The notes beneath the pieces were generated by a model, which saw only the letters and a program-made list of their open reading frames with translations, had not been told where the DNA came from and searched no databases. The translations under genes and the position numbers were made by a program. A DNA stretch of 64,000 nucleotides from Burkholderia contaminans (GTDB taxonomy: Bacteria > Pseudomonadota > Gammaproteobacteria > Burkholderiales > Burkholderiaceae). This document shows positions 43,439-47,363 of the stretch, one piece after another (the stretch's first letter is position 1; the number at the start of each line of letters is the position of its first letter). The stretch covers positions 2,356,001-2,420,000 of the forward strand of contig NZ_CP090641.1 of the NCBI RefSeq assembly GCF_029633825.1. Direction: 5' to 3'.

Positions 43439-43765
43439 GGATTCGTCCTCCGAGGGTCGATGGATCAAGCGGGGCGCGGCAGCGTGCACGGGCGGCCGGT
43501 GTGCGCCGGGCGGGGCGTGCGTGGCGGCGCGGGGGCGCGGGCGGACGCGGCGAACGTGGTGAATTCGGCGCGCCGGCATGTGAAGCGGGCTGCGTGATCG
43601 GTCGGGCGACTCGGTCGCATGGTGTCTCCTCCGGAGGGCGATGGCGTCGTTCGGGCGACGACTGGATGACGCCGATGGTGCTGGCCGCATGGGAAAACAC
43701 CAATGCTGCTTCGGGACAATTGTTTTAGTATTTGGGCCAAATCGGCGCTTCGAGGGTTTCTCCGC
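43439..43765. other. Divergent promoter region between GMC and AraC genes
   Basis: These 327 bases hold the promoters of the GMC/Baeyer-Villiger operon and the AraC gene, and the possible leader ORF. An AT-richer segment at about 43690-43745 lies just before the AraC start. Confidence 0.5.
43465..43620 (-). CDS. Possible 51-residue leader ORF with strong ribosome-binding site
   Basis: A small ORF starts at ATG 43620 behind GGAGGAGA (43625-43632 on the plus strand complement). It ends 26 bases before the GMC dehydrogenase start. The peptide begins MRPSRPTDHAARFTC and is proline-, alanine- and arginine-rich. The Shine-Dalgarno match is much better than chance, but composition gives no support for a folded protein. 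It may be a regulatory leader for the operon. Confidence 0.3.
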   Translation of the reverse strand: MRPSRPTDHAARFTCRRAEFTTFAASARAPAPPRTPRPAHTGRPCTLPRPA

Positions 43766-44797
43766 ATGAGCTTCTGGGATTTCACCCGGAGTCCGGCCAG
43801 TGCCCGGCTGCTGGTCGATTTCGGCGACGAACGTGGCGTGCCGCACACGACGCTGCTGGCCGGCACCGGGCTCGCCGACGCGCAGCTCGACGATCCGAAA
43901 GTCGAGGTGACGGCCGCGCAGGAATTGCGGCTGACCGGCAACCTGCTGCGCGCGCTCGGGCGCGCGCCGGGCCTCGGGTTCGAGGTCGGCCGGCGCTATC
44001 ACTTCTCCGCGTACGGGGTGTGGGGCTACGGGCTGATCGCCAGCGCGACCGCACGCGACGCGCTCGCGCTGGCGCTGCGCTTCCTGCCGCTTACCTATGC
44101 GTTCACGGTGATCACCTACCGCGAGGAAGACGGCACGTGCGAGCTCGGTTTCGGCGCGCCGGAACTCGATGGCCCGCTGAGCCGGTTCCTCGTCGAGCGC
44201 GACATGGCGGCCGCGGCCGTGCTGCTGCAGGAAATCGGCGACGACACATTCGCGTTGTCGCGCTTCACGGTGCAGGCGGCGCGCACGCCCGCCATGGCGG
44301 TGCCGCGCATCGCCGGCGTCGAGCCGGTCTTTTCGGCGCGCGCGAACAGCCTCGCTTTCGACCGCGTGTTTCTCGACCGGCTGCTGCCGCACGCGAATCC
44401 GCTGACGGTGTCGATGTGCGAACAGATGTGCGGCCAGTTGCTCGAAGCACGGCGTGCGCGCGTGGGCACGTCGGAGATGGTGCGCCAGTACCTGAGCGCG
44501 ACGCCCGGCCCCGCGCCGTTCTCGCTCGAGGACATGGCGCGGCTGATGAACACGAGCCCGCGCACGCTCAAGCGCCGGCTGCACGAGGAGGGCACGACGT
44601 TCCGGGCGTTGCTCGCGCAAGCGCGCGGCGCGATGGCCGAGACGTTGCTCGGCGACGCGCGCCTGTCGCTCGCCGAAGTGGCGGAGCGGCTCGGCTTCAG
44701 CGACCTGTCGAGCTTCTCGCAGGCGTTCAAGCGCTGGTACGGCGTGCCGCCGGGCGCATATCGCAGCGCGGCGCAACGGGAAGGCGGCCGTTCCTGA
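43766..44797 (+). CDS. AraC family transcriptional regulator
   Basis: A 343-residue regulator. The N-terminal domain (about 20-200) is the arabinose-binding-like AraC type. The C-terminal double helix-turn-helix (about 250-335) includes DMARLMNTSPRTLKRRLHEEG and the signature LAEVAERLGFSDLSSFSQAF. The start at 43766 is the first ATG giving the family N-terminus (MSFWDFTRSP). It is divergent from the GMC/Baeyer-Villiger operon and should activate it in response to a hydrophobic or alcohol substrate. Confidence 0.9.
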   Translation: MSFWDFTRSPASARLLVDFGDERGVPHTTLLAGTGLADAQLDDPKVEVTAAQELRLTGNLLRALGRAPGLGFEVGRRYHFSAYGVWGYGLIASATARDALALALRFLPLTYAFTVITYREEDGTCELGFGAPELDGPLSRFLVERDMAAAAVLLQEIGDDTFALSRFTVQAARTPAMAVPRIAGVEPVFSARANSLAFDRVFLDRLLPHANPLTVSMCEQMCGQLLEARRARVGTSEMVRQYLSATPGPAPFSLEDMARLMNTSPRTLKRRLHEEGTTFRALLAQARGAMAETLLGDARLSLAEVAERLGFSDLSSFSQAFKRWYGVPPGAYRSAAQREGGRS

Positions 44798-44852: not shown

Positions 44853-45362
44853 ATGATCACGATTCGCCCGATGACCGACGACGACTTTCCGCGCTTCTGG
44901 CCGACCTATCGCGCCATCGTCGCTGCTCAGGAAACCTACGCATTCGATCCTGCGCCCACACAGGAAGCGGCGCGCGCATTGTGGCTCGATGCGCCGCTCT
45001 GCACGTGGATCGCCGAAGAGGACGGCGTGGTCCTGGGTTCGTACTACCTGAAGGCGAACGCAGGCGGCCCCGGCAATCACGTGAGCAACTGCGGCTACAT
45101 GGTGAGCGAGGCCGCGCGCGGCCGTGGCGTCGCGCGCCTGATGTGCGAGCACTCGCAGCAGGTCGCGCGCGAGCGCGGCTTCCTCGCGATGCAGTTCAAC
45201 TCGGTGGTGTCGACGAACGAGGTGGCGGTCGCGCTGTGGCAGAAGCTGGGATTTGAAATCGTCGGACGCCTGCCGCGTGCGTATCGTCACGCGCGGCTCG
45301 GCTTCGTCGACAGCCTGGTCATGTACAAGTGGCTCGGCGACCCGCAGGCCGCCGAAGCCTGA
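44853..45362 (+). CDS. GNAT family N-acetyltransferase
   Basis: A 169-residue acetyl-CoA-dependent transferase. The acetyl-CoA binding motif A is the segment SEAARGRGVARLMCEHSQQ (about residues 87-106), and the C-terminal motif B region follows. It shares the fold of aminoglycoside and amino acid acetyltransferases. It is convergent with the metalloenzyme gene at 45379. No target can be predicted. Confidence 0.88.
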   Translation: MITIRPMTDDDFPRFWPTYRAIVAAQETYAFDPAPTQEAARALWLDAPLCTWIAEEDGVVLGSYYLKANAGGPGNHVSNCGYMVSEAARGRGVARLMCEHSQQVARERGFLAMQFNSVVSTNEVAVALWQKLGFEIVGRLPRAYRHARLGFVDSLVMYKWLGDPQAAEA

Positions 45363-45378: not shown

Positions 45379-46332
45379 TCAGACGGCGAACGCGCCGTCG
45401 AACACGATCCGCTCGTCGAGCGCGAGCGTGCCGCGCGCGAAGATCAGGTCGAGATGATGGCTGCCGTTTTCGCCGCCGCCGAGCCCGAGGTGCAGGCCCG
45501 GATGGCGTTCCTCGAACCCCGCGTTGCGGCCGTACAGCCCGCGAATCCCGAGGTTCGTGCCGATGCCGAATTCCTCGATCCGCCGGTGATTCGGATGCCG
45601 GTCGAGATAAGTCGAGAAGTCGCGCCGGAAGCCTTCGTTGCCGGTGTCGAACCCGACGATCGTACTGTTCTCGACCCGCAGCGTGGCGAGCTGCTCGGCC
45701 ACCTTGTACTTGATCGCGAACGGCACGGTGCCGAGAAACGTGCCGCTGAAGACGACCGAGCCGTTGAGGTCGGTGACGTGCGTCGCGATCTCGCCGGGCA
45801 CGACGTCGAGGTTGCCCATTCCGTCCACGCTCGTCCATTTCTGGTCCGGCGCAAGCGAGCCCGTCAGCGTGTTGCCGGCTTCGTCGATGAAGCGGATCTG
45901 CGACGCGTGCGCGGCCGCGTCGATCAGCCGGCCGTTGCGCGCCGCGATGTCGTCGAGCGATTCGGCGAACGCCTCGTCGAGATGCGGTCCGTAATCCTTG
46001 AACAGCACCGACTTGCTCCAGTGCTCGACGATCGCAGGACGGATCGCGGCGAGGAACGGCGGCCCGCTCGGCGACGGCGTGGGCAGGCACGACGAGTCGT
46101 ACAGCAGCACGAACAGATCGGCACGATCGAGCGCGGCGGCAATGTCGGCGGGTGGGGTGCTTTCGAGGCAGAGTGTGGTCGCGTCGAGCGAATCGGGCAG
46201 GGCGGAAAACGCGCGCAACGCGATGTCGCGGTTGCGGGTGTCATGGCCGACCAGCAGTTTTCCCGACTCGCCGCGCGCCAGCTTGTCGCGCAGCGCGGGG
46301 TGGAAGCCCAGTGCGCGGTGCAGGTTCAGCAT
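45379..46332 (-). CDS. M29-aminopeptidase/NicX-like metalloenzyme
   Basis: A 317-residue soluble protein related to M29 aminopeptidases and to the iron enzyme NicX (2,5-dihydroxypyridine dioxygenase). Candidate metal ligands are Glu181 (VPGE), Glu254 (EEFGIGTN), His281 (HLGLGGG), and His293/Asp295 (HHLD). The spacing differs from classical M29 enzymes, so the activity is open: peptidase, ring-cleavage oxygenase or peptide modification. It lies 58 bases after the 40-residue peptide gene, separated from it by a strong hairpin. Translation starts after CGGAGA. Confidence 0.7.
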   Translation of the reverse strand: MLNLHRALGFHPALRDKLARGESGKLLVGHDTRNRDIALRAFSALPDSLDATTLCLESTPPADIAAALDRADLFVLLYDSSCLPTPSPSGPPFLAAIRPAIVEHWSKSVLFKDYGPHLDEAFAESLDDIAARNGRLIDAAAHASQIRFIDEAGNTLTGSLAPDQKWTSVDGMGNLDVVPGEIATHVTDLNGSVVFSGTFLGTVPFAIKYKVAEQLATLRVENSTIVGFDTGNEGFRRDFSTYLDRHPNHRRIEEFGIGTNLGIRGLYGRNAGFEERHPGLHLGLGGGENGSHHLDLIFARGTLALDERIVFDGAFAV

Positions 46333-46349: not shown

Positions 46350-46373
46350 GCGGAAGGGCCGCAGCCCTTCCGC
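46350..46373 (-). terminator. Strong hairpin between the peptide and the metalloenzyme genes
   Basis: GCGGAAGGGC (46350-46359) and GCCCTTCCGC (46364-46373) form a perfect 10-base stem with a 4-base CGCA loop. It lies in the 58-base gap after the peptide stop. No strong T-run follows on the minus strand, so it may partly terminate transcription or protect the upstream mRNA end, giving more peptide than enzyme. Confidence 0.65.
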
Positions 46374-46390: not shown

Positions 46391-46513
46391 TCAGACCGGC
46401 CAGAGCGCGGTGCCGAACGGCACCACGGCGTCCTCGACCATCATGTCGACGGCCTCGGGGTGCGTGTCTTCCTGCATCCAGTCAAGCAATTCGATCTGCT
46501 GAGTGTCCTGCAT
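46391..46513 (-). CDS. Short acidic peptide, RiPP-precursor-like (40 residues)
   Basis: A 40-residue ORF with ribosome-binding site AGGAG seven bases upstream of its ATG. It starts MQDTQQIELLDWMQEDTH. The first 29 residues are strongly acidic and leader-like; the last 11 are hydrophobic (VVPFGTALWPV) and core-like, with Trp, Phe, Thr and two Pro. A sigma70-like promoter, a hairpin after the gene and a following metalloenzyme resemble a RiPP gene set. I do not recognise the family, and RiPP status is inference. Confidence 0.6.
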   Translation of the reverse strand: MQDTQQIELLDWMQEDTHPEAVDMMVEDAVVPFGTALWPV

Positions 46514-46570
46514 GTCAATTCTCCTGTGGTGAACATGAGTGATTCAACATGAAAGCGCGGCTAAAAAGTT

Positions 46571-46907: not shown

Positions 46908-47363
46908 TCAACCGAGCAGCGCCTTGCCGAGCGGCTTGGCCGGCTCGGACCGCAGCACCAGCGACGTCGTGACCGCGCCGAAGCGGGCAATCGCATCGAT
47001 GATGGTTTCCAGTTGTCCCGGTGTCGGCACCAGGACCTTCAGCAGGAAGCAATCCTCGCCGGTCATCCGGTGGACCTCGATGACGTGCGGCATTTCCCCG
47101 AACGCGCGCAGCGCCGGCTTGATGTGTTCGTGCGTCGTCTTCAACCGGATGATGGCCATCATCCCCAACCCCAGCGCGGCCGGGTCGATCCGTGCGCCAT
47201 AGCCCGAGATGATGCCGCGCTCTTCGAGGCGCTTGACGCGCTCCGACGTGGCCGGCTGCGACAGGCCGATACGGCGCCCCACTTCGGACAGCGGCATCCG
47301 CGCGTTTTCCTGCAGCGCCTCGAGGATCGACAGATCCAGGCGATCGAGCTCTCCGTTCGACAT
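46908..47363 (-). CDS. Lrp/AsnC family transcriptional regulator
   Basis: A 151-residue regulator with an N-terminal helix-turn-helix (MPLSEVGRRIGLSQPATSER at about 23-42) and a RAM ligand-binding domain (about 70-140). It starts at 47361-47363. It is divergent from an RBBP9-type hydrolase and upstream of the peptide cassette on the same strand. A nearly perfect long inverted repeat lies in the divergent gap at 47387-47416. Confidence 0.9.
   Translation of the reverse strand: MSNGELDRLDLSILEALQENARMPLSEVGRRIGLSQPATSERVKRLEERGIISGYGARIDPAALGLGMMAIIRLKTTHEHIKPALRAFGEMPHVIEVHRMTGEDCFLLKVLVPTPGQLETIIDAIARFGAVTTSLVLRSEPAKPLGKALLG

Follow-up and report, generated by a model that had tools for sequence, protein, structure and literature searches.

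This study concerns a 64,000-nucleotide stretch of the Burkholderia contaminans genome (RefSeq assembly GCF_029633825.1, contig NZ_CP090641.1, positions 2,356,001 to 2,420,000 of the forward strand), hereafter the window, and within it a gene encoding a 40-residue peptide together with the neighbouring gene, which encodes a 317-residue protein of the CgnB/CgnE type. The two genes are conserved together as a unit and most probably represent a precursor and the protein that processes it. The complete proposal is that of a conserved pair in which the precursor of a ribosomally synthesised and post-translationally modified peptide (RiPP) would be dehydrated at Thr35 by a CgnB-type protein holding two metal ions, after which Trp38 would close a ring; taken whole, it is considered about evenly balanced between right and wrong. 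The specific chemistry, drawn by analogy with crocagin biosynthesis, is tentative and, taken by itself, rather doubtful.

Results

The peptide gene and its neighbour form a conserved pair

The peptide gene occupies positions 46391..46513 on the minus strand, ATG start and stop codon included, exactly where the initial annotation had placed a 40-residue open reading frame (ORF), and its product is MQDTQQIELLDWMQEDTHPEAVDMMVEDAVVPFGTALWPV. The good ribosome-binding site claimed for it is an AGGAG at 46521..46525 (minus strand), 7 nucleotides (nt) before the ATG, read directly and by consensus only. Alignment and a structure model divide the peptide into an acidic, helix-prone, leader-like part (residues 1-28; 46430..46513, minus strand) and a core-like tail, AVVPFGTALWPV (residues 29-40; 46394..46429, minus strand), the border between leader and core being putative. 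The acidic N-terminus noticed earlier is borne out by nine Asp or Glu and no Lys or Arg in residues 1-28, and the C-terminal part is hydrophobic and carries Trp, Phe, Thr and two Pro (P32 and P39), as had been described. A low-confidence model (mean predicted local distance difference test, pLDDT, 62.4) places helices at residues 9-14 and 19-28 and leaves the tail unstructured.

The enzyme gene (45379..46332, minus strand) lies 58 nt downstream of the peptide gene on the same strand. Both were searched in 101 genomes, comprising the strain's own genome and its relatives, 61 of the same genus and 40 others. The peptide matched 47 genomes and the enzyme 48, all belonging to the same genus: 47 of the 61 encode both, 13 neither, and one, which is 82% complete, an enzyme fragment only, while neither gene was found in the 40 others. 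Two genomes have two places, and each of the 49 same-genus peptide places lies 60-113 nt from an enzyme place. The strain's own genome contains a single enzyme match and no second copy.

On a broader scale, the pair was followed in 80 loci, the best 80 of 240 encoding an enzyme relative, which belong to Burkholderia, Paraburkholderia, Photorhabdus, Chromobacterium, Xenorhabdus, Klebsiella and Pseudomonas, plus one Enterobacterales locus. It is present in 78 of them; the remaining two (L100 and L114) are truncated by contig ends no more than 185 nt from the enzyme, on the flank that carries the peptide in relatives. The peptide gene precedes the enzyme gene in 76 of the 80 loci, at a distance of 57-239 nt, and follows it in two Xenorhabdus loci (L112 and L116). 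The initial annotation had stated that its reading would be refuted if the peptide were not conserved beside the enzyme; the pairing found in 49 of 49 same-genus places and in 78 of 80 loci instead supports a RiPP-precursor-like peptide, a short precursor-like gene conserved together with a dedicated neighbour being the arrangement by which RiPP systems are recognised.

Two wider samples were searched. Among 369 genomes of the class, searched for both genes, the peptide profile and the enzyme matched the same two genomes (G000 and G420); a further, weak peptide place in G295 (E 0.0086) lies inside a 626-residue frame and was taken as chance, and a further enzyme match, in G127, is a copy broken by stop codons. 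Among 398 genomes of the phylum, searched with the enzyme profile and then by pattern for a peptide near each match, the enzyme was present in eight and the peptide adjoined it in six. A diverged version of the pair occurs in three Burkholderia genomes, its peptide 50-53% and its enzyme 47-49% identical to those of the window (G016:C3:517710-517823, G041:C19:32888-33001 and G049:C26:114243-114356); in G016 and G041 it is a second copy.

Distances between peptides and between enzymes correlate across 24 loci with r 0.85, a value that shared ancestry inflates and that none of 2000 permutations reached. In the same comparison, both genes of the Paraburkholderia humisilvae pair have their nearest relatives in Pseudomonas, and for peptide and enzyme alike the second-copy pair of Burkholderia comes closest to Paraburkholderia and Enterobacterales pairs. 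Because the nearest relatives agree for the two genes, peptide and enzyme appear to move together, as judged from sequence. Paraburkholderia rhizosphaerae is discordant among the 12 loci for which neighbours were reported, its enzyme being nearest to Burkholderia and its peptide slightly nearer to Chromobacterium.

The peptide is under purifying selection and its tail is nearly frozen

The peptide ORF evolves under purifying selection. In 30 Burkholderia copies (22 distinct DNAs) the ratio of nonsynonymous to synonymous polymorphism (pN/pS) is 0.143 for the whole peptide and 0.050 for residues 28-40, where synonymous change is also low (pS 0.095 vs 0.195 for the whole peptide); for the enzyme it is 0.193 (26 ungapped rows of the 30 copies). 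Amino acids are conserved over most of the peptide length and not just near the stop codon. Relatives share the near-constant tail motif VVPFGTA[L/M]W, and W12, M25, T35 and W38 are invariant in a 28-row alignment.

The tails of 171 peptides, 93 of them database proteins and 78 from the loci, were compared. With one fragment that lacks the terminal Trp left out, the 170 peptides retained comprise 88 distinct tails. Thr35 and Trp38 occur in all 88, P32 and F33 in 85 each, W12 in 81 and A36 in 80, with the limit that the locus peptides were picked by a pattern requiring [FV][GA]T-x-x-W, and are hence uninformative on variation at those positions, while the database proteins were picked without it. 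Beyond Trp38 come one or two further residues that vary, in most tails P, A or S and after it V, L, F or nothing. Most RiPP cores are variable; a near-frozen tail, from Burkholderia to Photorhabdus, is a hint that the product has a conserved function.

Neither Pfam nor NCBIfam holds a family matching the peptide at E≤0.1. In a set of 5.8 billion proteins, 93 protein clusters match its profile at E≤0.1, and those that are named are mostly called 'hypothetical protein' or, in UniRef, 'Mercuric reductase', names which may lead readers to overlook them. The latter appears to be a misannotation of peptides of 39-62 residues (P0153, P0156, P0159, P0162, P0165, P0167, P0181, P0187 and P0195).

The neighbouring protein has a CgnB-type predicted fold and candidate metal ligands

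The peptide's neighbour had been called a metalloenzyme, and its predicted fold and conserved ligand residues fit that description. The structure model (pLDDT 94.7) adopts the fold common to NicX, the M29 aminopeptidases and CgnB/CgnE, and the CgnB/CgnE fold extends over the whole of the predicted model. Foldseek returned nine PDB chains only at E≤0.001, which are NicX, AmpT, AmpS, CgnB and CgnE. No Pfam or NCBIfam family matched the protein at E≤0.1, in a Pfam copy that does not include PF26231; rescanning of the protein and its relatives at looser cut-offs gave nothing relevant, and a sequence search of the PDB, with the single protein or a profile, found no match at E≤1 and at E≤10 only CgnB (E 1.4). 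Close homologues do carry PF26231, 'Crocagin biosynthetic protein CgnE/B domain'. The statement in the initial annotation that no named family was known therefore did not survive: CgnB and CgnE are named relatives, as indicated by the homologue names, the fold and the crocagin report (PMC10070186).

In the alignment to CgnB (6zsv; E 1.4), E254, E275, H281, H293 and D295 correspond to CgnB E252, E274, H280, H291 and D293 (ligand residue numbers from PMC10070186), and none of these five residues varies in any of the 27 enzyme rows. The sixth candidate ligand is E181, the presumed counterpart of CgnB E161. With five of the six ligands of the dinuclear CgnB set aligned, albeit in that weak alignment, the protein is predicted to bind two metal ions.

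Spacer hairpin and gene neighbourhood

Folding of the window spacer gives a perfect 10-bp RNA hairpin between the peptide and enzyme genes (46350..46373, minus strand; z -2.3), and 53 of 71 distinct spacers contain a perfect stem reached by at most 5 of 100 shuffles. Hairpins in the spacers of other genera are unrelated in sequence, and a U run accompanies some of the spacer hairpins. Such an element could allow precursor and enzyme to be made in different amounts. An Rfam search gave no family match at E≤0.1, and scans for sigma-70 promoters and terminators found zero of either, the shuffle means being 0.4 and 2.2.

An Lrp/AsnC regulator gene, recognised by Pfam, lies upstream of the peptide gene (46908-47363, minus strand), and a GNAT gene (44853-45362, plus strand) converges on the pair from downstream of the enzyme. 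ORFs of at least 70 residues were clustered in flanks of up to about 8 kb from 38 of the 80 loci, and 13 clusters span at least two genera. These consist of the enzyme itself, the peptide in a longer frame, apparent antisense frames and generic genes mostly away from the pair. Outside one subclade, no other particular gene is found repeatedly next to the pair in different genera.

That subclade (L106, L109, L110, L111 and L121) has a third gene of about 480 residues just downstream of the enzyme (L106:9019-10455, L109:1793-3214, L110:9151-10590, L111:9006-10469, and likewise downstream of the enzyme in L121); weak matches to TPR and Glyco_transf_9, below cut-off, suggest a glycosyltransferase-like protein. 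GNAT genes adjoin the pair not only in the window but also in L108 (9086-9628, minus strand) and L106 (6542-7045, minus strand), being convergent and downstream in Burkholderia and Xenorhabdus and upstream of the pair in one Enterobacterales; since their identity is just 26-28% over stretches of about 90-100 residues, their recurrence may be chance and was not counted. The Pseudomonas pair stands beside genes which, by eye, we take to be amino-acid permease-like and rluB-like, the Photorhabdus pair is near a presumed riboflavin synthase-like gene, and in L112 the peptide gene is followed about 560 nt on, on the same strand, by what looks to us like a TetR-like gene. Elsewhere in the window, an AraC-type regulator (43703-44797, plus strand) resembles QhpR below the NCBIfam cut-off (161.5 bits vs 250) and has beside it a minus-strand ORF that, read by eye, is presumably a GMC oxidoreductase.

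No enzyme relative was found in viral contigs, no peptide in a phage collection and no match at E≤0.001 among viral structures, so there is no sign of a phage origin. In a plasmid collection, matches fell on three Burkholderia replicons, whose size of 3.2-3.5 Mb would suit chromosomes.

Discussion

A proposed route from precursor to product

The pair is best read as a stand-alone RiPP cassette, its single CgnB-type metalloprotein having neither a CgnC nor a second copy of itself in the vicinity. Both genes would be translated, with the peptide made in excess over the enzyme. The enzyme would bind the acidic, helix-prone front half of the peptide, and the flexible tail, as its substrate, would be positioned at the metals. 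Dehydration of Thr35 would then create a double bond for Trp38 to add to, closing a Thr-Ala-Leu-Trp ring, and a peptidase encoded at another locus would be required to free the tail. In the favoured scheme for crocagin, CgnC hydroxylates the Tyr C-beta, the CgnB metals drive a beta-elimination and the Trp indole adds (PMC10070186). As Thr bears a beta-hydroxyl from the outset, a protein of the CgnB type could work on it with no CgnC at hand, and the Thr35/Trp38 proposal would account both for an invariant beta-hydroxy residue and Trp in the tail and for CgnC being unneeded. The joining of a side chain to a dehydrated Thr has a precedent in the histidine-to-butyrine crosslink (PMC10206099).

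Several observations weigh against this proposal. The weak point of the chemistry is that Thr lacks activation of the kind found in beta-hydroxy-Tyr. The pairing has exceptions: in the phylum sample, the enzyme of G742 lies at a contig end, and G837 encodes a distant relative without such a peptide, a longer 402-residue frame which keeps the GELGLGTN, GIHLG and HIDL motifs (L153); in the class sample, the G127 relative is split by stop codons and no peptide was seen adjoining it (L145 and L146). The hairpin is not universal either, as the remaining spacers have no such stem, some of them through single mismatches, and four of 14 folded spacers (L105, L106, L123 and L138) have z above -1. Generic flanking genes also recur in two to four genera, namely ABC ATPases, an (amino-acid) permease, LysR, a response regulator, GNAT and SDR.

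Alternative explanations

Two alternatives keep the RiPP pair and change the role of the protein. Given the shared fold, it could be a NicX-like Fe(II) dioxygenase oxidising the indole of Trp38. NicX, a catabolic 2,5-dihydroxypyridine dioxygenase, holds one Fe(II) through His265, Ser302, His318 and Asp320 (PMC7910607), and the positions of His265 and Ser302, traced by way of CgnB, appear to be Glu254 and His281 here, as in the two-metal pattern of CgnB; such a role would moreover leave the invariant Thr35 unexplained, and it is judged unlikely. It is rather improbable that the protein is a metallopeptidase which trims or releases the peptide, any modification being made elsewhere. No Peptidase_M29 (Pfam) match at E≤0.01 exists in the whole genome of the strain (four of 14 control genomes have one), CgnB and CgnE showed no aminopeptidase activity (PMC10070186), and trimming does not explain the frozen tail.

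The peptide might also be no precursor at all. Strict pairing and co-variation of the two genes would also suit a peptide that stays unmodified and serves the protein as a small subunit or regulator, and the present data show no modification; this is nevertheless improbable, as the CgnB/CgnE relatives bind a precursor that is modified (PMC10070186) and conservation is strongest in the tail, which the low-confidence model leaves unstructured. A regulatory leader ORF, in which the ribosome on the peptide controls enzyme expression via the spacer hairpin, draws on the stems that exceed shuffles in most distinct spacers, on the occasional U run and on the Trp-Pro beside the stop codon in most tails. 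A cis-acting leader is hard to reconcile with the two Xenorhabdus loci in which the peptide gene follows the enzyme gene, in L116 with a convergent gene (GNAT) next, and with amino-acid conservation along most of the peptide; the Rfam search offers it no family, and it is very improbable.

If the preferred reading of a CgnB-type protein acting on Thr35 and Trp38 is right, it would describe a minimal RiPP pathway, with one precursor and one dinuclear-metal enzyme tying Thr to Trp without dioxygenase, kinase or glutamyl-tRNA, and with a near-identical compound made in many Proteobacteria, which would resemble a conserved signal or cofactor rather than an antibiotic that varies. This broader picture is speculative and on balance unlikely.

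Comparison with known systems

The open-licence PMC literature contains no paper with PFGTALW, PFGTAMW or PF26231, and none joining RiPP and precursor peptide with peptidase M29, or with leucyl aminopeptidase and Burkholderia. Peptidase family M29 (AmpT, AmpS, PepS) differs from the present system in that its profile has no match in this genome and in the peptide-gene partner found here. NicX shares the fold and differs at the two ligand positions discussed above, which are probably Glu and His here as traced via CgnB, and in the peptide-gene partner, none being described for NicX in the available part of PMC7910607.

The closest known system is crocagin biosynthesis in Chondromyces crocatus, where the precursor CgnA is likewise a short peptide accompanied by CgnB-fold proteins. 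Adam et al. 2023 (PMC10070186) reported binding of CgnA by both CgnB and CgnE, and formation of the crocagin core by CgnB, CgnC and CgnE acting jointly; two zinc ions are present in CgnB, and no metal is seen in CgnE, which has lost the E274 and H280 positions of CgnB. Common to both systems are the five aligned metal ligands and a Trp near the precursor C-terminus, the sequence match to CgnB itself being weak (E 1.4). Unlike in crocagin, no CgnC-like dioxygenase or second CgnB/E copy recurs beside the pair (38 loci, flanks up to about 8 kb; a search with the CgnC sequence for a non-recurring dioxygenase was not made). The leader is acidic here and basic in CgnA, and the tail reads ...TALWPV in place of Ile-Tyr-Trp; whereas the crocagin precursor ends in Tyr-Trp, in 88 of 88 distinct tails T-x-x-W is followed by one residue or more, usually P or A.

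Homologues of CgnB/E were already reported by Adam et al. in about 100 genomes, including Beta- and Gammaproteobacteria, the single-copy ones keeping the metal site, and candidate precursors found with RiPPER are listed in the supplements (PMC10070186). Because single-copy homologues and candidate precursors had thus been described, the present cassette is a variant within the family founded by that work, and its peptides may be among the supplementary candidates; the main text does not name Burkholderia, Pseudomonas or Photorhabdus. The proposed catalytic role of CgnB has been hard to isolate, given that CgnC and CgnE act alongside it and that mutation of the metal site made it insoluble (PMC10070186). 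A protein with a CgnB-type predicted fold and ligand set, accompanied by a single peptide, would make its own function testable using two genes.
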